This document shows, one piece after another, positions 6,080 through 35,262 of a DNA stretch of 35,262 bases. Where the stretch lies: positions 1 through 35,262 of IMG/VR virus record IMGVR_UViG_3300042445_001201, one strand, 5' to 3'. The notes beneath the pieces were generated by a model, which was given only the letters and a program-made list of their open reading frames with translations, did no database searches and was not told the DNA's origin. The stretch is from a virus. How positions within the stretch are numbered: the stretch's first letter is position 1; every line of letters starts with the position of its first letter. A program made the position numbers and the translations under genes.

Positions 6080-6124
6080 CGTGTTGCGTTTTGGCCCTAG
6101 TCGGGGTTGGATGCCGCCAACCAG

Positions 6125-7840
6125 ATGAGAAAAATGAAACTGTCCTTGTCGGTGATTACCGGCAACTGTGAAGCAGATGTGGTGCGGTTCCTGAATGTGT
6201 TTCAGCCGCACTTCGACGAGATCGTGATGGTTCGCGCAATCGGGAATCAGAAACCGGACAAAACGCTTGATATCGCAAAGCTTCGCGGGTGCAAAACAGG
6301 AGAATACTTTAACGGCGTCACCTGCGGCGGCGGGCGAGTAAAGCTTTGCCGTAAGAAAGGAACGGAGGACTGGCCGCACGTTGACGACTTCGCCGCCGCT
6401 CGCAACAAATCCGCCGAGCTTTGCACTGGCGACTGGATCATGTGGGCGGATATGGACGACACCACCGAGGGGCTGGAGCATCTGCGGACCATCCTTGAGA
6501 ACCTAGACCCGGCTATTGACGTTCTGCGCTGTCCCTACGTCGTCGGAGAGCAAGGGGTGGTGGCGAACTACCGGGAACGAGTCTGGAAGCGCGGAACACC
6601 CCACAAATGGGCAAACGCGATCCATGAAAACCTTGTTAGGACGGACGGCAAGGATGCGAAGCAAGCGCAGACCGACCGGGTGCGACTCGTCCACATTCCG
6701 AGGCATAACAGGGAATGTTCCAAGGACCGAAACCTGCGAATCCTTGAGTCGATCCCGGAGGAAAAGCGCACGCACTCGCATACGTTCTACCTGATGAACG
6801 AATACGCGAGGATTAAAGACGCAAAGGCAATCGAGCTTGCCAAGTCTTTCCTCGCGCATCCAGAGGGCGGCGGTCCTGAGCGTTACGAGACGTTTATGAT
6901 GCTCGCCGCGATGGCGGAAGAGTTGCCGGACAAGGCGGCAATCTACGCGCAAGCATTCAACGAAGACCCGAGTCGCGCCGAAGCTCTCTACGAACTCACG
7001 GCGCTCTCCATGTCGTTCGACGAGCCGGAACGGGCGCTTGCTTACGCTCGCCACATGATGACCTGCGAATGGCCGGAAAAGCCGTCCTGGAACCACCGGA
7101 AGATGTTCTACGAGTTCTTCCGCGAGGACTTGTATTTGCAGGCTCTCCGCATCAACGGGCGGGCCATGGAATCCGACACCCGGCGCGGGAACATGCTGGC
7201 GACATCGGGCAAGGCGACGATTTCCCTGCTCCACGCGACACGCGGCAGGGCGATGCAAGCGATCCGCTGCCGGTCGGAATGGTTGCGACTCGCGGACGAT
7301 CCCAAGCGAGTTGAGCATATTTTCGCGGTCGATTCAGACGACGAGGAAGCCGAGGTTTTCTTTCGCTTCCCGTCCATCATCATGGACAACAACGGCGGGC
7401 CGGTTGCTGCATGGAACATCGCGGCGAAGCAAAGCACCGGGCAAATTCTGGTCCAGCTTTCCGACGATTGGAAACCGTTCCGAGGATGGGACACGGCGAT
7501 TGTCGATGCCATCGGAGACACATCCGCGCCCGCTGTTCTTGCGGTCAGCGACGGACACCGGAAAGACGACCTGCTTTGCATGGCGATCCTGACCCGCGCC
7601 CGCTACAAGCAACAGGGGTATCTATTCCATCCCGAGTTCTTCTCCATGTTCTCGGACAACTGGTTCTCGCATTGCGCCTTCCGCGACGGCGTGGTGATTG
7701 ACGCTCGAGACCGAATCACCTTTGAGCATGTCCACCCGGCATTCGGCAAGGCTGAGATGGACGAGACATACGCCCGCAGTAATGCCGCCGAACACTATCA
7801 AAAAGGCTCAGAGATTTTCCAAAGGTTGACTCATGAATGA
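6125..7840 (+). CDS. Two-domain glycosyltransferase with TPR-like middle
   Basis: The N-terminal domain (1 to about 190) is GT2-like: SLSVITGNCEADVVRFL, then DDFAAARNKSAE and the DxD motif ADMDD (108-112), which would bind metal and nucleotide-sugar. The middle (about 210-340) is helical and repeat-like (EDPSRAEALYELTALSM). A second GT-A-like domain starts near residue 363 (KATISLLHATRGR) and carries another acidic LSDDW motif near 447. The substrate is unknown; capsid or tail proteins are plausible from context. I chose ATG 6125 (MRKMKLSL); 6134 is an alternative. It lies directly after the capsid terminator. Confidence 0.82.
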   Translation: MRKMKLSLSVITGNCEADVVRFLNVFQPHFDEIVMVRAIGNQKPDKTLDIAKLRGCKTGEYFNGVTCGGGRVKLCRKKGTEDWPHVDDFAAARNKSAELCTGDWIMWADMDDTTEGLEHLRTILENLDPAIDVLRCPYVVGEQGVVANYRERVWKRGTPHKWANAIHENLVRTDGKDAKQAQTDRVRLVHIPRHNRECSKDRNLRILESIPEEKRTHSHTFYLMNEYARIKDAKAIELAKSFLAHPEGGGPERYETFMMLAAMAEELPDKAAIYAQAFNEDPSRAEALYELTALSMSFDEPERALAYARHMMTCEWPEKPSWNHRKMFYEFFREDLYLQALRINGRAMESDTRRGNMLATSGKATISLLHATRGRAMQAIRCRSEWLRLADDPKRVEHIFAVDSDDEEAEVFFRFPSIIMDNNGGPVAAWNIAAKQSTGQILVQLSDDWKPFRGWDTAIVDAIGDTSAPAVLAVSDGHRKDDLLCMAILTRARYKQQGYLFHPEFFSMFSDNWFSHCAFRDGVVIDARDRITFEHVHPAFGKAEMDETYARSNAAEHYQKGSEIFQRLTHE

Positions 7841-17236: not shown

Positions 17237-17608
17237 ATGCCCATCATCCCCGAGCAACCCATCGTCGTCCCGCCCGTCCCCGGCGAGACCTTCACCGAGC
17301 AGTGGATCTACAACCTCGTCGTGCATTCGCCCGCGATCAACTCAGGCCGCGTGCAGATCCAGCTCCTGCCGTTCGATCCGACCGCCCCGAAAATCGGACC
17401 CGGCGAGTTGCTCGAGAACATCGAGACCGACCGCCTCTGGGATGCCGTCGCGGAGGTGCCTGAGGTGGCGGCTGCGATGCAGTCGGTGCTCGATGCCGTC
17501 GAACCGCTGCGGGCATGGATCGCGGCGCAGAACGCACCGCAGCCTGAGCCTGAGCCTGAGCCGGAACCAGAAGCAGAACCCGAGCCTGAGCCTGAGCCTG
17601 AGTCTTAA
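17237..17608 (+). CDS. Pro-Glu repeat protein of the tail-lysis junction
   Basis: A 123-residue protein with a folded-looking N-terminal part (ETFTEQWIYNLVVHSPAINS, then a helix about 65-95) and a C-terminal PEPEPE tail from CCTGAG hexanucleotide repeats. The tail is very acidic and extended and could be a spacer or a phase-variable length tract. It may be a fibre accessory protein; function unknown. Confidence 0.65.
   Translation: MPIIPEQPIVVPPVPGETFTEQWIYNLVVHSPAINSGRVQIQLLPFDPTAPKIGPGELLENIETDRLWDAVAEVPEVAAAMQSVLDAVEPLRAWIAAQNAPQPEPEPEPEPEAEPEPEPEPES
17543..17604 (+). repeat. CCTGAG hexanucleotide tandem repeat
   Basis: About ten hexamers of CCTGAG and close variants (CCGGAA, CCAGAA) encode alternating Pro-Glu at the end of the 17237-17608 gene. 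Perfect copies cluster at both edges and degenerate ones lie in the middle, so copy number may vary by slippage without changing frame. Confidence 0.9.
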
Positions 17609-18899: not shown

Positions 18900-19303
18900 C
18901 AACCGAAGAACGCATCGCGGCATCCATCGGGAAAAACCCCGGAGCGCCAAACCATACAATCGCCAAAAACCTTAGCGTTAGAGCGGCGGAAGTCCAAGCT
19001 GTCCGAGATAAGATGCCTCAGCATCAAGGCGACCCGGAAGAATCTTCGCTTTCGGGTATCGCGCTCACGAACAAGCAGATCCTATCTCACAGGCCAGCAG
19101 AGACGGCAGCACTATTCATCCAGCGCCTTCCCAAAGGACGCGGATTTCTTCCCGCGGAACTGTCGAAGAAGTGGCATCTCTCGGAAGAAACAATCAAAAA
19201 TCACGCCAAACGACTTGGATGTTTGAAATACCTGAACGTCGGCGCAGGCAACTGGGTGCAAGTCGTGATCAACCCTGAAACAGCGGAAGGCTTAACCGAA
19301 TGA
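18896..19303 (+). CDS. Helix-turn-helix DNA-binding protein candidate
   Basis: A 135-residue protein with two possible HTH units: residues about 5-35 (EERIAASIGKNPGAPNHTIA, KNLSVRAAEVQAVRD) and about 80-105 (AELSKKWHLSEETIKNHAKR). ATG 18896 overlaps the upstream stop; a longer frame from 18833 would overprint the metallopeptidase gene. It may regulate late genes or act with the phosphoesterase encoded next, which overlaps it by 4 nt. Confidence 0.7.
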   Translation: MTTEERIAASIGKNPGAPNHTIAKNLSVRAAEVQAVRDKMPQHQGDPEESSLSGIALTNKQILSHRPAETAALFIQRLPKGRGFLPAELSKKWHLSEETIKNHAKRLGCLKYLNVGAGNWVQVVINPETAEGLTE

Positions 19304-20304
19304 ACGAAGGAATCGACCTGACAGGGGCCAAGCTATCCAGCGATAGCGCGATCAAGGATGTGATGGCATTGCGGGCGAAGCTGCAAGAAAAGGATAAGGT
19401 CATCAAGGCGCTTCAAAGCGACCGCGAGGAACTTCTCTCGCAATTCACGAACCTACATCAAGCAAAGTATCCCGTGCCGGTTCCAAAGGCAAAACTGGCA
19501 GCCAGGACAAAGGGTGACTTCATACGCATCCTCGCCGGTGACGTTCACGGGTCCGCAATGGACCGTCCTGCCGTCGAGGCGTTCATCCGAGACGTGAAGC
19601 AGTGGCAACCCAACGAGATTGTCCTTGGCGGCGACATCATCGAGTGCGGCGGCTTCCTCGCGGAGCATCACACGCTCGGCTACATCGCTGAGACTGACTA
19701 CACTTACCAGGACGACATCGCCGCAGCGACATGGTTCCTCGACCAGCTTCAAGATGCAGCGCCAAACGCCAAGATCATTTTCATTGAGGGCAACCACGAC
19801 GAAAGGCCCGAGCGATGGGTAATCGACAAAACGATCCGCAACGGACGCGATGCCGAGTTCTTGCGCTCGCTGATTTCTCCCCGCACGCTTCTCAATCTCG
19901 ACGCTCGAGGCATCGAGTTCTTCAGCCGTGGCGTGAACTATGTTCCAGGCCTCCCGAACGGATGGATCAAGCTAGGCAAGATTTTCATCACCCACGAACT
20001 TGGGGGAGGCACAAACGCTGCCCGTGATTCGGTAAGCAAAACAGCGGGCAACGTCGTGTTTTTCCACACGCATCGCGCCGACACTTCGACGAGGGTGTTT
20101 CCCAACGTTGGTTTGGTCACAGCGTGGAACCCCGGCTGTCTCTGCCAACTCCAGCGCATGTGGAATCACTCCGATCCGACGGGGTGGAACCACGGCTACG
20201 CGATCCAGTTTGTTTCCTCCACCGGGAATTTCCTTCACATCCAAGTGCCGATCAACGATGGTGTCAGCCTCATAGGGCCAATGCACGACCGAATGACATC
20301 GTAA
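19300..20304 (+). CDS. Calcineurin-like metallophosphoesterase
   Basis: A 334-residue enzyme with all motifs of the two-metal phosphoesterase fold: D81-x-H83 (AGDVHG), GD at 111-112 (LGGDII), GNHD at 164-167, H231 (FITHELGGG) and H255-T-H257 (FFHTHRAD). A coiled-coil N-terminus (about 20-55) precedes it. Members cleave phosphodiesters in nucleotides or nucleic acid; the substrate here is unknown, with RNA/DNA end processing or a signalling nucleotide possible. It is the last plus-strand gene before a convergent junction. Confidence 0.85.
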   Translation: MNEGIDLTGAKLSSDSAIKDVMALRAKLQEKDKVIKALQSDREELLSQFTNLHQAKYPVPVPKAKLAARTKGDFIRILAGDVHGSAMDRPAVEAFIRDVKQWQPNEIVLGGDIIECGGFLAEHHTLGYIAETDYTYQDDIAAATWFLDQLQDAAPNAKIIFIEGNHDERPERWVIDKTIRNGRDAEFLRSLISPRTLLNLDARGIEFFSRGVNYVPGLPNGWIKLGKIFITHELGGGTNAARDSVSKTAGNVVFFHTHRADTSTRVFPNVGLVTAWNPGCLCQLQRMWNHSDPTGWNHGYAIQFVSSTGNFLHIQVPINDGVSLIGPMHDRMTS

Positions 20305-23402: not shown

Positions 23403-25601
23403 TCAGAAAAGTTGAAGCTGTGCTTTCGCGTTCCGAAGGTTGCCGCAAGCCTGCTTGAAATACGACTCCTTCAGCTCGCTGCCGATGAAACGCCGATTCA
23501 GAGTCAACGCGCCGACTCCCTCGCTTCCGATGCCAGCGAACGGCGAATAAACCAGATCGCCGGGGTTGCTCCAAAGCATCACAGCGCGTTCGATGACATC
23601 GAGCTGGAGTGGGCAAATATGCTTCTCGTCTTGTTCCGTCCTTGCGCCGTCACGGTTCAAAACTCGGCCTTGGTCAATCGTCATCCAGACTGGCGAAGCC
23701 ACCTCTTGCCACCATGAAACCGGAAACTCGCCGCGATCCTTAGATATAGGCTTTGGATTCTCTCCCGGCGCACGGAAGATCAGCAGGTAATCCGCCGATC
23801 CGACCCGCGAGTCGGCGCTGTCATTACAAAGCGTCTTGTGAAGCAACCCGTGCGCCTTGGTCCGCTGCATCTCGGTCACTGGATTCTTCCAGATGCAAAT
23901 CCGCGAGTGAAACCGGAATCCGCGTTTCCAGAATGACCGGATGATCTCGCCGCTGAAGTCTTGGAACTGAATCGCGCCGTGCTTCCACTTCGTCGCCAGC
24001 AAGTCAACGCAATGCACCGCGACCTCGCGACCCGGAACCATGATCCGCGCAAGCTCGTCAATCAGAAGCTCGAAATGCTGGGTAAACTCGTCCATGTCAT
24101 TGCAGTTTCCCATGTCCTGCAAGTCGTCAGAGTAGGTGAACAAATCCGCGAATGGCGGGGAGAAAACGGACAAGTCGATTGACTGGTCGGGGATCGTTTT
24201 GGCGACCCGGACGCAATCGCCGTGGTGCATTGTCCATTCGTTTGTGGATTCGGTGTTGATGTCGGTTTTCATGGTCAGTTCTTTAACTTGGAAGCCACGG
24301 AAGCATTCCGCCGCGATCTTCATTTTCTGCTGCATTTCTTCGTGCTGGCGGATCTTCTTATTGATGGTTTGGAGGATTGCGCCCTCCGTGGTTGCTTGGA
24401 CGATGTAGGCGTTTACCTGCCGCGTTTGGCCGAATCGGTATGACCGGCGCAAAGCCTGATAGAAGTCTTCGAAAGAGTAGGACAGTCCGACGAAAGCGAC
24501 GTTGGAACAATGTTGCCAGTTCATCCCGTATCCGAAGATCCCACTCTTGCTAATTAGGACGCGGATTGACCCATCCACGAATCCTTCCGCCGACTTCTCT
24601 TTGAACTTCGCGGTGTCGCTTCCCTTGACTTCGACGGCATCGGGAATGGCAGCGCCAAGGAGCTTGCTTTCCTCGTTGGTGTTGCACCAGACAATCCACG
24701 ACTCATTCGACCCGTTGACGAGTTCCGCCACTTTAGCGACCCGATCCGCAACCGTCATCGAAAGCTCTTTGTGCATCGTGGTTGCCGAGAGCGTTGAGTG
24801 GCGCAGTAGCTCGCCTTCTTTGCGCCCCTCCACCTCGTCAACCTGGACCGCGAAGGATTGGAGATTCAGCGGCGGCAGATCGTAGCCATCATCCGTAAAT
24901 CCAATGTCTGACGGCTTGGAGATGCACGCGGCCCACGATGAGAGCCATTCCCAAAACGACTTTTCAGCGTGGCGCTTCAGCCTCCAGTCGCCAGTGTTGA
25001 ATGTGTCGTTTAGAAAAAACGTGGCGAGCATCTGAGCGGGCGAGCAGATGCCGAGGAAGTCGGCGTGCTGCCCGAACTCCGTGTAATCGTTTGGCGATGG
25101 CGTTGCCGTGCAGCAGAGCCGATACGGGGTGTCGGAGAATCGCGACGTAAGTCGGATGCGGGTCTTGCCGGTGAAGTTCTTGAGAATCGAGCTTTCATCC
25201 AGAACCACGCCCGCAAAATCCACGCCGTCGAAATGGTCGAGCTTGTCGTAGTTCGTGATATAGATGCCGGTCCCGTTGCACTGGTCGCCAGACTCGACGA
25301 CCTTAGCAGCAATGCCAAACTTGCGAGCCTCCGCTTCCGTCTGCTTGGCGACCGATAGGGGTGTCAGGATCAATACCATGCCGGAAGTCTTGAGTTTGAT
25401 TTGATGCGCCCACTCAAGCTGCTGCGCCGTCTTGCCTAGCCCGCAATCTTCAAAGAGCGCGGCGCGTCCTTGGCGCACTGCCCATTCGACAACGTGGCGT
25501 TGCCAGGGGAATAGTGGAGCGGTGATTTCCAACGGCTCGAAACCGTGCGACTGAGCGCGCTTGGTTTTGGCTGTGATGAAGTCGTCGTATGTATTCGTCA
25601 T
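23403..25601 (-). CDS. SNF2-like helicase fused to DNA methyltransferase
   Basis: A 732-residue, two-part protein. Residues 1 to about 430 are a superfamily 2 helicase: Walker A CGLGKT (53-58), motif II LDESS (134-138), motif III TATP (165-168) and motif VI QALRRSYRFGQTRQ. Residues 444-732 form a beta-class N-methyltransferase: GDCVRVAKTIPDQSIDL, catalytic SPPF (481-484) and SAM-binding FAGIGSEG (688-695). The SPPF motif fits N4-cytosine or N6-adenine methylation. An internal in-frame ATG at 24272 starts the methyltransferase part. It is first in the minus-strand operon. Confidence 0.9.
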   Translation of the reverse strand: MTNTYDDFITAKTKRAQSHGFEPLEITAPLFPWQRHVVEWAVRQGRAALFEDCGLGKTAQQLEWAHQIKLKTSGMVLILTPLSVAKQTEAEARKFGIAAKVVESGDQCNGTGIYITNYDKLDHFDGVDFAGVVLDESSILKNFTGKTRIRLTSRFSDTPYRLCCTATPSPNDYTEFGQHADFLGICSPAQMLATFFLNDTFNTGDWRLKRHAEKSFWEWLSSWAACISKPSDIGFTDDGYDLPPLNLQSFAVQVDEVEGRKEGELLRHSTLSATTMHKELSMTVADRVAKVAELVNGSNESWIVWCNTNEESKLLGAAIPDAVEVKGSDTAKFKEKSAEGFVDGSIRVLISKSGIFGYGMNWQHCSNVAFVGLSYSFEDFYQALRRSYRFGQTRQVNAYIVQATTEGAILQTINKKIRQHEEMQQKMKIAAECFRGFQVKELTMKTDINTESTNEWTMHHGDCVRVAKTIPDQSIDLSVFSPPFADLFTYSDDLQDMGNCNDMDEFTQHFELLIDELARIMVPGREVAVHCVDLLATKWKHGAIQFQDFSGEIIRSFWKRGFRFHSRICIWKNPVTEMQRTKAHGLLHKTLCNDSADSRVGSADYLLIFRAPGENPKPISKDRGEFPVSWWQEVASPVWMTIDQGRVLNRDGARTEQDEKHICPLQLDVIERAVMLWSNPGDLVYSPFAGIGSEGVGALTLNRRFIGSELKESYFKQACGNLRNAKAQLQLF

Positions 25602-27159: not shown

Positions 27160-27435
27160 ATGACAACCACCACCCACGAACTCGTCCAAGCCAACGACGC
27201 ACTCCGCGCCGAATATCCGACCGCGCTCATCCTTGATGCCCAGTTTGGCGCTGACGGATTCCGCCTGATGATGATGCCTCAGAGCGACGATTACGCCACT
27301 CAGATCGGCAAAGGCGCGACCGTCACCGAAGCCCTGGCCGACCTTCGTTGCAAGGTCGCAGCGAACGACCCGCTCGCCAAGCTCCGCAAGCAGGCCGACA
27401 AGGCAGGCTACATCCTCACACCAAAACAAGACTGA
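27160..27435 (+). CDS. 91-residue hypothetical protein upstream of RecT
   Basis: MTTTTHELVQANDALRAEYP leads into a beta-strand segment (ALILDAQFGADGFRLMMM) and a helical, Ala/Lys-rich end. It is two nucleotides from the RecT-like gene and preceded by an uncoded 67-bp gap. Function unknown. Confidence 0.65.
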   Translation: MTTTTHELVQANDALRAEYPTALILDAQFGADGFRLMMMPQSDDYATQIGKGATVTEALADLRCKVAANDPLAKLRKQADKAGYILTPKQD

Positions 27436-27437
27436 CC

Positions 27438-28079
27438 ATGACAACCGAACTGACAACCACGCAAGAATCCGCCGCGTTTGAACTCACCCAGCGGCAGGCT
27501 AAAATGCTCTCAAGCAGCACGCTCGTCCCGAAGGAGTTTCAGAACAACATGGCCAACTGTGCCATCGGTCTGAACATCGCAAAACGACTTGGAGCAGACC
27601 CGTTTATGGTCCTCCAGAACATCGACATCATCCACGGGCGACCATCGTTCCGCGCCTCGTTCCTCATCGCCATGGTGAATGCCTCGGGTCGATTCACGCC
27701 GCTTCAATTCCGCCTAGATGGCGCTGGCGAGAAACGCGGATGCGTAGCCTACGCCACCAACAAAGAGACCGGCGAGATCGTCGAGGGACCAGAGGTTACG
27801 ATGGCAATGGCTAAGGCCGAAGGCTGGTCCACGAAGTCGGGCAGCAAATGGCTGACGATGCCGGAACTGATGTTGCGCTATCGTTCCGCCGCGTTCTTCG
27901 CTCGCATCTACGCGCCCGACATCACGTTGGGTATGCAGACCGCCGAGGAGATCCACGACGCGGAACCGATCCGCAACGTCACGCCGCGACCAGGCTTCGC
28001 CGCTGCCATCGCAGCCCCGGTCGAACCGACCGCGCAAGAGTCCTTTGAAGCTGAACTCGCGCAGGAGGAGGAAGCATGA
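27438..28079 (+). CDS. RecT-family single-strand annealing protein
   Basis: A 213-residue recombinase that anneals complementary ssDNA, working with the exonuclease encoded next. Family features: a central stretch with FMVLQNIDIIHGRPSFRASF, a KSGSKWLTMPELMLRYRSAA segment and the AAFFARIYAPDITLG helix, all typical of RecT/Bet-like phage proteins. The C-terminus is Ala/Glu-rich and disordered. ATG 27438 follows CTGACC; the stop overlaps the exonuclease start. Confidence 0.88.
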   Translation: MTTELTTTQESAAFELTQRQAKMLSSSTLVPKEFQNNMANCAIGLNIAKRLGADPFMVLQNIDIIHGRPSFRASFLIAMVNASGRFTPLQFRLDGAGEKRGCVAYATNKETGEIVEGPEVTMAMAKAEGWSTKSGSKWLTMPELMLRYRSAAFFARIYAPDITLGMQTAEEIHDAEPIRNVTPRPGFAAAIAAPVEPTAQESFEAELAQEEEA

Positions 28080-28741
28080 AGATCTGGGACGTAAAGCAAG
28101 GCCAAGAGGAATGGCTGGCGCTGCGTAAAAGCTACTTCACAGGCTCCGCGCTAGGGGAATGGCTACTCGACGGCGACCGCACCAAGACAAGCCGCAAGGC
28201 ATGGCAAAATGCCATCTGGAACAAGCTTGGCGAATTGTCGCAGGATGACGAACCGAACTTCCCGAACTGGGCAATGAAGCGCGGCACGGAGCTTGAGCCG
28301 CTCGCCCGTGCTGCCTACGAGCGGCACACGGGATTCAAGGTCCGCGAGGTTGGATTCATTTCCCACGATTCGGACGGATTCGGGGTTTCGCCGGATGGTT
28401 TGATCGTCGGTAGCTTGGATTTCCCGATTGGCGATGACGACTTCTACCACGGACTTGAACTGAAATGCCCTGTCGCCCGCACGATGCTGAAGTGGCTCGA
28501 TGCCGGAACGCTGCCGGATGAACATAAGCTTCAGGTTCACGCGAGCATGGCTGCAAGCGGTCTTTCGCGCTGGGACTTCTTCGCTTACCACCCCGAGCTT
28601 GTGCCGCTGCACATCATCGTTGAGCGGGACGAGTTCACGGAGCTAGTCCTTGCTGGCCTACTCAAACTTTCCGACGACTACAGCGCGGCGAAGGCAAAGC
28701 TGGCGGGATGGATCGCAACGCCAACGAACGACACACCATGA
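28076..28741 (+). CDS. YqaJ-type viral exonuclease (lambda Exo-like)
   Basis: A 221-residue PD-(D/E)XK nuclease that degrades one strand of DNA ends for RecT. Seen: E72/E74 in KRGTELEPLAR, D107 in VSPDG, E128-x-K130 in LELKCP and Q153 in KLQVHASMAA, the signature order of the YqaJ family. It is the classic partner of RecT and overlaps it by 4 nt. Confidence 0.9.
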   Translation: MKIWDVKQGQEEWLALRKSYFTGSALGEWLLDGDRTKTSRKAWQNAIWNKLGELSQDDEPNFPNWAMKRGTELEPLARAAYERHTGFKVREVGFISHDSDGFGVSPDGLIVGSLDFPIGDDDFYHGLELKCPVARTMLKWLDAGTLPDEHKLQVHASMAASGLSRWDFFAYHPELVPLHIIVERDEFTELVLAGLLKLSDDYSAAKAKLAGWIATPTNDTP

Positions 28742-30564: not shown

Positions 30565-30666
30565 TGAGACCCGGAAAGAACGATGCAGAATTACAAACAG
30601 CCTCCAAATCCCTCGCCAGCCGGTTGCATCACCGGGTCTCACTGGCGGCGGGTTTGGGGGCTTTTT
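30565..30666 (+). terminator. Terminator-like structured RNA with pseudoknot potential
   Basis: A long hairpin pairs 30600-30611 with 30650-30661 (two G-U pairs) and 30613-30619 with 30642-30648, followed by TTTTT at 30662-30666. The hairpin loop contains CCGGGTCTCA (30632-30641), perfectly complementary over 10 bp to TGAGACCCGG (30565-30574) upstream, so a pseudoknot or alternative fold is possible. It sits just before the replication genes (30676), ten bases from the next ATG. It may be a terminator for 25868-30480 or an attenuator for replication genes. Confidence 0.6.
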
Positions 30667-30675
30667 ATTGTTACC

Positions 30676-30942
30676 ATGACTGAAAAAGAACCGTTTGCGT
30701 GGGATATTCATCGTTTCGATGAATTGTTTGGAAATGAGCCGAGCGCCGTTGAGATTGAAGACGGATGGCTTACGATTTGCGGCCACTACCCGATTGAGTT
30801 GACGCGCATTCCTGACGAGAGGGCGCTTTGCGAATGGGTTTATCACCTAACGCAAAAAACATGGGTCACTGGCGAAATCATCAATGATTTTGTCGGCGCT
30901 GTTTTTGCGGAAAAAGGATGGCAACTCTACAAACACATTTGA
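30676..30942 (+). CDS. 88-residue hypothetical protein before the initiator
   Basis: Begins MTEKEPFAWDIHRFDELFGN and is acidic with aromatic residues (YPIELTRI; EWVYHLTQKTWVTGEIINDF). ATG follows GTTACC, ten bases after the T-tract of the structured element, so its mRNA leader overlaps that element. Function unknown. Confidence 0.65.
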   Translation: MTEKEPFAWDIHRFDELFGNEPSAVEIEDGWLTICGHYPIELTRIPDERALCEWVYHLTQKTWVTGEIINDFVGAVFAEKGWQLYKHI

Positions 30943-30945
30943 GCC

Positions 30946-31656
30946 ATGGCTGGAGACTGGATAAAAATGAGGAAAAGCCTGCCGACCGATCCGCGAGTCG
31001 TCCGCATTTCGTCCGCTTTGAAAGCGGACAGATTGCGGACAATCGGCGGACTCATGTCCGCTTGGTGTCTTCTCGACGAACAGACGGAAGACGGAAAGCT
31101 CGACGGATACACTCCCGAGATTTTCGACGAGATCGTCGGATGCCCTGGCCTAGCCGAAGCAATGGCAAGCGTCGGATGGATGGAGCTTGGCGACGGATTC
31201 CTTGCTGCGCCAAGGTTTCACGAGCATAACGGGCAATCCGCCAAACGCCGGGCTCAAGATTCCGTCCGCAAATTGTCCGCACGAGAAGCGGACAAACGTC
31301 CGCAAGCAAAGCGGACAGATTGCGGACTAGAGAAGAGAAGAGAAGAGAAGAGTATTATCCCCCCTTCCCCCAATGGGGAATTGTCGGAGTTTCTGGAATC
31401 CGTGTGGAAAGCCGGACCCATTCAAAGCAGAACCCGATCTTCCAAGCGCCAACTTGAATCCGCTTGGAAGAAGACACAGCGCAAACCACAAGAACCGGAA
31501 GTCCTTCGAGTTCTTGGTTTGTGGGTAAAGTCTCACGCTTGGACGAAGGACAACGGCGAATTCACGCCGGGAATCCACCGCTGGATTCAAAACCGCCAAT
31601 GGGAGAACGAGCCGGAGCAATCGGCGCCATCAGCAATGGAGGGACGAGGCTGGTGA
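30946..31656 (+). CDS. Replication initiator candidate (O-like)
   Basis: A 236-residue protein directly before DnaB. The N-terminal winged-helix-like half reads GDWIKMRKSLPTDPRVVRIS, then AWCLLDEQTEDGKLDGYTPE, a pattern typical of phage replication proteins. The centre is basic and low-complexity (RREEKS); the C-terminus (about 140-215) is a second helical domain that probably contacts the helicase. Within the gene lie two clusters of GTCCGC hexamers and a purine tract, as lambda's origin lies in O. GTG of the next gene overlaps its stop. Confidence 0.82.
   Translation: MAGDWIKMRKSLPTDPRVVRISSALKADRLRTIGGLMSAWCLLDEQTEDGKLDGYTPEIFDEIVGCPGLAEAMASVGWMELGDGFLAAPRFHEHNGQSAKRRAQDSVRKLSAREADKRPQAKRTDCGLEKRREEKSIIPPSPNGELSEFLESVWKAGPIQSRTRSSKRQLESAWKKTQRKPQEPEVLRVLGLWVKSHAWTKDNGEFTPGIHRWIQNRQWENEPEQSAPSAMEGRGW
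31000..31061. repeat. Iteron-like cluster 1
   Basis: Six copies of the hexamer GTCCGC or its complement GCGGAC, starting at 31000, 31011, 31024, 31035, 31046 and 31056 (orientation F F R R R F). Spacing is 10-13 bp, about one helical turn, so bound proteins would line up on one face. Includes the left copy of a 20-bp repeat (31021-31040). Confidence 0.85.
31264..31327. repeat. Iteron-like cluster 2
   Basis: Six further copies start at 31264, 31275, 31288, 31298, 31311 and 31322 (F F R F R R), again 10-13 bp apart. Contains the right copy of the 20-bp repeat AAAGCGGACAGATTGCGGAC (31308-31327). Immediately precedes the purine tract. Confidence 0.85.
31329..31352 (+). other. Purine-only tract, possible unwinding element
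   Basis: 24 consecutive purines made of about five repeats of AGAGA, followed by TATTAT (31353-31358) and a C/T tract (31359-31371). The strand asymmetry and position right after the iterons resemble the lambda origin's A-rich region. It is also inside the coding frame (KRREEKS). Confidence 0.7.
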
Positions 31657-32969
31657 ACGAGACCCCACATTTCCAAGGACCGGAGAAATCCGTCATCTCC
31701 TCACTCCTGCACTCCCCAGAGCTTCTTGAGGAGGCTGGACACCTAACCGGCGACCATTTCCACCTCCCGGCGACAAAAACGCTTTTTCAGGCCATTCTGA
31801 GCGCAGTGGAGAGGCAAGAGGAGATCGAGCTAATCGCCCTTCGCGAACGGATGCACGCAGCGGGGACGCTGGAGTCAGTCGGAGGAACTGCCGGGTTGAC
31901 GGAAATTTACACTTACGCTCCTGGCGGATACCACTTCAAGCAGCACGTTAGGATGCTGACCGAAAAGCTTGCCGTTCGCCGCGCTGCCGACCTCGCCAGA
32001 GAGATCACCGATGCCGTCGCCACTGATGCCGACCCACAAGACCTAGCCGACCTCGTGGCATCCAAATCCACGGTGCTTTCTGACACGTTGGCGGAAGCGC
32101 GCCCTGTGGCCGACACCAAGGCTCTAGTCCTAGCTGCCGCTCAACGGTGGGAGGACAGAATCATGGGGAGGGTCCAGCCGGACGGAATGACAACCTCTCT
32201 GCCGGAATTGAATCAGCTTTTCCGGGGACTCAAGCCGCGCCGGGTCACGGTGATTTCCGCGCTGCCATCTCAAGGCAAAACGCTTCTAGGTGGGCAGCTT
32301 TTCATGGATTGCGTAATGGAATCTCACAAGGGGCTTTTCTTGACCTGGGAGATGGACCCGGACGAATTGATTGACCGATTCCTTGCCTACTCAGCACGCC
32401 AGCCAATCAACGCCGTAGCCGAGCCGGAAGTGTATTGGAAGGACGGCAAGCCGAATGAATACGAGTTGCGAAACCTCACGGCGGCATTCCGAAACGTCGC
32501 CACATACCCGATGACGATTGAGGCGATGCACGGCAAAAACATCAACCAAGCCATTGCAGCCATACGCCGCGAGCATCGGAAGGGGGAGCTAAAGGTCGTT
32601 GTCATGGATTTCATCCAGCGCATCGCGCCGAGCAAGGCCATGGAAAAGCAAAGCTACGAACGGGCGCTTGCCGACATTGCCGACCGATTCCAAAACCTAG
32701 CGCAAGAGCTTGGCTTCCACGGCATCATGCTTTCCCAACTCAACAAGGAGGGCGCTGCCAAGCACGCGGAAGCAATCAATGAGTCTTGCGCTTTGCACCT
32801 CAAAATCCTCAAGGTTCCCGTCACCGGCAGCGATGGCACGATTGTCATGGAAAACGGTGCCGCAAAAATCAAGGTGGAAGGAATTTCCGTCGTCAAAGAC
32901 CGATTCCACGGAAACCGCGACAAGCTACTCAGCATCAAGCTCGACCTCGAAACACAACGCTTCAAATAA
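31653..32969 (+). CDS. DnaB-type replicative helicase
   Basis: A 438-residue hexameric helicase. The N-terminal domain (EKSVISSLLHSPELLEEAGH; 10-130) matches DnaB, followed by a linker and a RecA-like domain with Walker A ALPSQGKT (203-210), Walker B VVVMDF (315-320) and the SQLNKEG motif near 360. I chose GTG 31653, which overlaps the initiator stop (GTGA); in-frame ATGs upstream would add non-family sequence. It would be loaded at the origin by the upstream initiator. Confidence 0.92.
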   Translation: MNETPHFQGPEKSVISSLLHSPELLEEAGHLTGDHFHLPATKTLFQAILSAVERQEEIELIALRERMHAAGTLESVGGTAGLTEIYTYAPGGYHFKQHVRMLTEKLAVRRAADLAREITDAVATDADPQDLADLVASKSTVLSDTLAEARPVADTKALVLAAAQRWEDRIMGRVQPDGMTTSLPELNQLFRGLKPRRVTVISALPSQGKTLLGGQLFMDCVMESHKGLFLTWEMDPDELIDRFLAYSARQPINAVAEPEVYWKDGKPNEYELRNLTAAFRNVATYPMTIEAMHGKNINQAIAAIRREHRKGELKVVVMDFIQRIAPSKAMEKQSYERALADIADRFQNLAQELGFHGIMLSQLNKEGAAKHAEAINESCALHLKILKVPVTGSDGTIVMENGAAKIKVEGISVVKDRFHGNRDKLLSIKLDLETQRFK

Positions 32970-35145: not shown

Positions 35146-35250
35146 ATATCCACGCGATGAGAGATAAGATAAGATAGCGCTTGATACTTAAGAAGATATG
35201 ACTATCTACCCCCCATATGGGAACCCTATCCTAAAAGATAGCCCCTCGGG
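35146..35250. other. Cos-like non-coding region
   Basis: No gene is visible between 35146 and the terminase start (60) across the junction. It holds the second ATAAGATAGCGYTTG copy (35169-35183), the perfect palindrome CCCATATGGG (35212-35221), a small hairpin CTATC-6-GATAG (35226-35241) and a CCCC-GGGG inverted pair (35242-35251). This is where a terminase binding and cutting site would be. The cos function is an inference. Confidence 0.5.
35169..35183 (+). promoter_or_regulatory. Repeated ATAAGATAGCGYTTG element, copy 2
   Basis: ATAAGATAGCGCTTG matches copy 1 at 34292-34306 in 14 of 15 bases. On the circular genome it lies about 140 bp upstream of the small terminase gene, so it may drive the late operon or bind a terminase or HTH protein. 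Confidence 0.5.
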
Positions 35251-35262
35251 GTTAGGGCGCAT
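35251..35262. repeat. 12-bp terminal direct repeat, right copy
   Basis: Identical to bases 1-12 (GTTAGGGCGCAT). The overlap shows that the left and right ends join. Confidence 0.85.

Follow-up and report, generated by a model that had tools for sequence, protein, structure and literature searches.

A candidate phage replication origin within its own initiator gene, and a predicted helix whose residues covary with the hexamer of its sites

Two hexamer clusters and a weak tract in the initiator gene

Twelve copies of one hexamer lie in two tight clusters within a single phage gene, which raises the question of whether they mark the place where the phage replicates, and if so how the initiator reads them. 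The gene (30946-31656, + strand; P0001, 236 aa) is annotated as PHROG 2509 'replication initiation protein', and in a profile search its residues 1-136, the N-terminal domain, match this family with an E of 2.5e-50. The next gene (31653-32969, +), whose GTG start overlaps the initiator stop by 4 bases, encodes a DnaB-like replicative helicase (phrog_19, E 5.3e-49). Upstream, a RecT-like annealing protein (27348-28079, +) and a RecE-like exonuclease (28076-28741, +) complete a replication and recombination context, and the left part of the window—the whole stretch of 35,262 nucleotides that was analysed—holds terminase, portal and head protease genes: it is an ordinary tailed-phage genome. It also carries, by PHROG match, a glycosyltransferase-like protein of 577 aa amid the structural genes (6107-7840) and a metallophosphoesterase-like protein (19300-20304), as well as a 732-aa protein (23403-25601, - strand) that matches DNA helicase profiles along most of the chain and, in its second half, DNA methyltransferase profiles as well. 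The right contig end, past the last open frame (35150-35262), has AGATA-type repeats, a CCCCCC run and GGGGTTAGGGCGC.

The first-pass annotation had reported six GTCCGC/GCGGAC hexamers at 31000-31061 and six at 31264-31327, and a scan of the window finds all twelve, exact and in place. Cluster 1 runs 31000+, 31011+, 31024-, 31035-, 31046- and 31056+, with steps of 11/13/11/11/10 bp; cluster 2 runs 31264+, 31275+, 31288-, 31298+, 31311- and 31322-, with steps of 11/13/10/13/11 bp. A near-match with one mismatch, ATCCGC (30989-30994, +), stands 11 bp before the first exact site, the distance that the rule described below gives for two + neighbours, and would be a seventh rung of cluster 1. The whole window holds 40 copies of GTCCGC for 34 expected, so that the remaining 28 are background, at chance level in the genome-wide count that the annotation had proposed; what stands out is the clustering alone. 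GTCCGC twice reaches six copies in 65 bp; among 60 order-3 Markov simulations no run brought any hexamer to this number, the best count per run being 3 in 45 runs, 4 in 14 and 5 in one. The sole other six-fold hexamer cluster of the window (17541-17598) is a tandem of the GAGCCT type encoding a Glu-Pro run, the C-terminus of an open frame that ends near 17608, and is an ordinary linker. In the initiator gene the sites occupy all three reading frames, and 2000 rounds of synonymous codon shuffling yield a mean of 2.7 GTCCGC, the highest count being 8, against the 12 real ones; thus the array is not a by-product of the protein sequence.

Directly 3' of cluster 2 comes a purine tract of 24 nt, AGAGAAGAGAAGAGAAGAGAAGAG (31329-31352, +), a candidate DNA-unwinding element: the least stable 40-mers within 30600-32000 start at 31317-31328. 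Such a tract is common to the family (median 23 nt, vs 6 nt in control stretches), and in most relatives it is an (AGAGA)n run placed directly after the second cluster. The duplex-stability profile averaged from 138 genes runs level near -1.50 kcal/mol per step, also between the two clusters, and reaches -1.29 only at the tract, after cluster 2, where GC drops from 0.57 to 0.42. In the Rac prophage the tract is spelt otherwise, GAGGAAGAGGAAG..., and encodes E runs; this different spelling hints at conservation of the DNA rather than of the peptide.

The annotation's reading of the locus as a candidate origin inside an initiator gene that a DnaB-like helicase gene follows is thus supported by both family assignments, by the weak tract alongside and by the conservation of the sites described below, and we consider it quite probable, from what the sequence offers, that 31000-31352 is the true replication origin of this phage and lies inside the coding sequence of its initiator. 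The GC-skew map it had also proposed gave no help, since the skew rises near 34 kb rather than at 31.3 kb and is uninformative at this length.

Relatives and the orientation of neighbouring sites

The comparison set comprised about 270 related genes in all, of which a first round gave 205 unique ones from viral contigs, named phages and bacterial genomes. When the clusters were sought in these relatives, as the annotation had suggested, the hexamers were found to be kept. The nearest relatives have them at identical gene positions (55, 66, 79, 90, 101, 111 and about 319-377); Salmonella phage epsilon15, Klebsiella BUCT711 and Pseudomonas phiPSA1 retain most of the hexamers of the window; and relatives with as little as about 30% N-domain identity, epsilon15 among them, still have such ladders. 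The relatives that keep the sites come from proteobacterial prophages, Planctomycetota MAGs and viral contigs. In a set of 56 genes with pairwise identities below 85%, the first part of the gene contains 125 sites for 31.9 expected by synonymous shuffling and the second part 192 for 46.8; GTCCGC reaches a density of 11.8 per kb over the first 480 nt of the gene, vs 0.65 in the flanks. No clear array was seen in 16 of the 205 unique genes. Three genes of Verrucomicrobiota (L250, L253 and L254) share the domain but lack a clear hexamer array within the gene; their word may be one that we do not recognise, or their sites may lie elsewhere.

The six-plus-six arrangement had been put forward as a possible new origin layout. 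The count sets apart this phage with its closest relatives, the window gene and its near-copy standing at the top of the range with twelve; the two clusters themselves recur across the relatives, so that the layout belongs to the family and not to this genome alone. Most GTCCGC genes have 5-8 exact sites, with a peak at seven and typically ++-- per cluster, and six-plus-six is an elaboration of this commoner, roughly four-plus-four layout. One large clade (MAGDWIKMRxNLWDDP...) has cluster 2 only, so that cluster 1 is not universally needed.

The steps of 10-13 bp noted at first sight are right as a range; they are not loose, since the orientation of both neighbours sets each step. In the GTCCGC group, neighbours of the same orientation are 11 bp apart (128/129 for ++ and 85/85 for --), converging ones (+-) 13 bp in 209/209 and diverging ones (-+) 10 bp in 9/9; the GTAACG and GTCACG groups, presented below, have near-identical spacings with some 12s for same-facing pairs. 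Taking all hexamer groups together (163 genes), 393 of the 429 adjacent pairs obey the rule, the 12-bp same-facing pairs being scored as misses, while 9.4 of 15.5 adjacent pairs fit in the synonymous shuffling control. These counts are inflated by the shared ancestry of the genes; on the other hand different clades put their sites at different codons, so that the rule has been met more than once. It also accounts for the mixed orientation within clusters, rightly described as unlike the direct iterons of lambda: what is fixed appears to be a helical ladder rather than a direction. From these distances we infer that initiator subunits would bind GTCCGC one per hexamer along a ladder with a step of about 11 bp (near 11.5 bp by our estimate), and that their contact point, slightly off the hexamer centre (by less than 1 bp), would make the distance 11 bp for equal, 13 for converging and 10 for diverging sites.

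The basic helix and the choice of hexamer

The N-terminal domain found no Pfam or NCBIfam model. An AlphaFold2 model made with 84 relatives predicts confidently a winged-helix domain over about codons 16-87 (30991-31206, +; pLDDT mostly >90) and, with modest confidence, a basic helix SAKRRAQDSVRKLSAREAD over codons 98-116 (31237-31293, +), which is our candidate for the recognition helix. A Foldseek search of the domain against the PDB gave no significant match, and VIA-align against the PDB gave generic winged helices only, none standing out; the RepA_N-type structures 4pt7, 4pql and 5kbj score Z 4.8-4.9, tied with many unrelated winged helices.

Not all relatives use GTCCGC. Among distant ones, GTAACG(C) is the word of Rac ydaU, of Xanthomonas CP2 and Olaya and of Pseudomonas VW-6S and PAN70, and others have GTCACG or GTCACA, and GTCTAC, with the same geometry; in these other-hexamer relatives the first cluster, where present, lies in different codons, at about nt 138-200. 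That the helix predicts which hexamer is used, which was absent from the first-pass annotation, is the main content of this analysis. Residues 101, 105 and 109 lie on one face of the predicted helix (R101 31246-31248, D105 31258-31260 and K109 31270-31272 on the + strand of the window). Between GTCCGC and GTAACG genes (86 genes), the mutual information of alignment column and hexamer is complete at 105 and 109: D/E105 goes with K109 in 56/56 GTCCGC genes, while the GTAACG genes have T105 in 28/30 and V109 in 27/30. The covariation is equally complete within the sole clade that mixes both hexamers (44 genes). Base by base, over 143 genes, R101 accompanies G at base 5 (66/68), D/E105 accompanies C at base 4 (67/68) and K105 T at base 4 (4/4), A at base 4 being found with small residues or T at 105; V109 accompanies A at base 3 (36/40), and C at base 3 is found with K/Q109. 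R108 is nearly invariant. The helix adjoins the second ladder, just upstream of it; its codons 101, 105 and 109 overlap no GTCCGC site in the window, and a few GTAACG genes have a site, at nt 309, that reaches codon 105.

In these comparisons the three residues predict the hexamer: R, D/E and K/Q give GTCCGC; T105 and V109 give GTAACG. In a first out-of-sample test on 54 new genes, less than 85% identical to the earlier ones, T105 with V/A/L/I109 predicted GTAACG in 8/8 and D/E105 with K109 predicted GTCCGC in 11/14, so that the two-residue rule was correct for 19 of 22 unseen genes. Two of the three misses have K101 for R101 and GTCAC sites; the third is without a clear array. With R101 included, an addition made post hoc, the rule agrees with 214 of the 227 genes that have phased sites, makes no prediction for 13 and is contradicted by none. 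The rule was then frozen in writing before a last scan of 11 new genes, and was correct in 7/7 where both prediction and call existed; of the other four, two were predicted as GTAACG and have shifted TAACGC arrays, one has no clear array and one received no prediction. This last blind set is small and mostly GTAACG, which makes it a mild test. One gene (L168) had been taken for an exception to the code and was rejected as such, its phased sites being GTAACG as predicted. Two others (L533 and L535) have T105 and V109, yet sites better written TAACGC or CTAACG, which hints that GTAACG sites can at times do without their first base.

Related initiators can differ in hexamer at N-domain identities of up to about 83%. 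The genes L160 and L180, for example, share 83% of residues 1-96, but the helix, the sites and all that lies downstream differ, with a DNA identity of 0.41 over the helix. The best tree of residues 1-96 has 12 changes between GTCCGC and GTAACG; firmly supported branches carry two of these changes, and helix and motif swap in 2/2, a weak test of independence (a second tree was made without L275, which has a long branch and a poor motif call). By this evidence helix and sites appear to swap together, and because the helix adjoins the second cluster, a single crossover close to the conserved HNG codons would carry the two along. Cluster 1 is missing from the very clade that mixes specificities, as would be expected, we suggest, if such an exchange were to leave a first cluster mismatched. 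We hold it somewhat better than an even chance that the helix code (residues 101, 105 and 109 for bases 5, 4 and 3) is family-wide, and that a helix and its own sites form one cassette through which a single recombination would create a new, self-consistent origin specificity.

A possible mechanism, its rivals and known origins

If 31000-31352 is the origin, the initiator would recognise its sites mainly by the basic helix, with residues 101, 105 and 109 contacting bases 5, 4 and 3. One assembly would cover codons 19-39 and a second codons 107-128, and the two may loop together; the assembly beside the purine tract would strain it and open it, and the C-terminal part of the initiator would bring in the adjacent DnaB-like helicase.

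The hexamers might instead be operators, for autorepression of the initiator or the timing of its transcription, while replication starts elsewhere. Initiators often autoregulate, cluster 1 is near the gene start and the clade without cluster 1 still has the gene; we nevertheless judge this unlikely, since the density of sites is not raised upstream of the gene, the usual place of operators, and since cluster 2, which lies far downstream of any promoter and against the stability minimum, is always kept. An array devoted to copy-number control, binding the initiator for handcuffing or titration while replication starts from another part of the phage genome, seems to us a shade less likely again: iteron systems do use arrays both ways and two clusters per gene invite pairing, but the low-stability tract next to the sites is conserved, and no further array was found in the window or in the flanks of relatives examined.

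Two further explanations concern the protein and the mRNA. One takes them for an artefact of protein or codon usage, conserved peptides such as VRxxSALxADxLR being spelt with GTCCGC. Cluster 1 does encode conserved residues and homologues share ancestry, but this explanation, already disfavoured, is made very improbable by sites that fall in all three frames at 3- to 6-fold over synonymous shuffles, by a spacing that depends on orientation, and by unrelated hexamers that keep the same geometry in other codons. The other sees in them the stems of RNA hairpins of the initiator mRNA, a + site pairing with the following - site, as GTCCGC-N7-GCGGAC can fold; same-orientation neighbours, unable to pair, keep their 11 bp no less strictly, and the hexamer varies together with residues in a protein helix, so that we give it hardly any credence either.

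How does the proposed origin compare with known ones? The origin of lambda has four directly oriented iterons of 18-19 bp in one cluster (six in the Stx phages P27 and 933W), each iteron an inverted repeat bound by an O dimer (PMC7466680), and the iterons are annotated inside the O gene. Like it, the present locus has repeated sites inside the initiator gene, 3' of a part that encodes a DNA-binding region, then a low-stability tract, and the order of initiator followed by helicase-factor gene; unlike it, the sites are single and of 6 bp, in mixed orientation with steps of about 11 bp, and usually in two clusters. The description of the initiator as O-like thus holds for the intragenic layout of the sites and is not supported for the N-domain, where profile comparison with lambda O detects no relation (hhalign probability 0.2%, 14 columns): by the tests made, of iteron form and N-domain, the system would work like the lambda origin but is not a member of its class. 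Certain PHROG 2509-type initiators have C-terminal parts in common with O-like PHROG families, so that the initiator family seems assembled from exchangeable parts. The C-terminal part of the present initiator, alone, occurs in plasmid replication proteins. The N-domain matches sit on phage-sized records (41-52 kb), and we found no small plasmid with this initiator as its sole replicon.

PHROG 2509 is also matched by epsilon15, YdaU and Vibrio, Cobetia and Pseudomonas members. Epsilon15 has the same protein family and type of array, with GTCCGC at gene positions 55, 66, 79, 101, 334, 345, 358 and 369, and differs by a DnaT-like C-terminus of its initiator; the Rac, Xanthomonas and Pseudomonas members differ from the window by GTAACG in place of GTCCGC. 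An active origin, oriJ, is stated for the Rac prophage (PMC3945230), and the GTAACG ladder inside ydaU (L093) may be this oriJ. In the PLE satellites of V. cholerae the RepA_N domain and the origin covary and swap as a module, by experiment (PMC8263062, PMC7145576). There the origin is intergenic, with semi-palindromic iterons of about 30 bp, and whole RepA_N domains differ, whereas here a short helix and adjacent intragenic sites would be exchanged, and the covariation is resolved to three residues. The PICI/SaPI origins have two sets of short iterons flanking an AT-rich region 3' of rep (PMC6092414); the two sets of short sites are alike, but here both are intragenic and the weak tract follows the second set instead of lying between them. 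We found no description of the present arrays in the open papers searched, subscription journals being mostly outside that search, and an earlier description is possible.

If our reading is true, the replication origins of many temperate phages and prophages, including those of well-studied enterobacteria, would be definable from sequence alone. The helix code is the point of greatest consequence: the replication specificity of these phages would be tied to three residues and one hexamer, and the family would offer a clear example from nature of joint change in a DNA-binding protein and the sites it binds.
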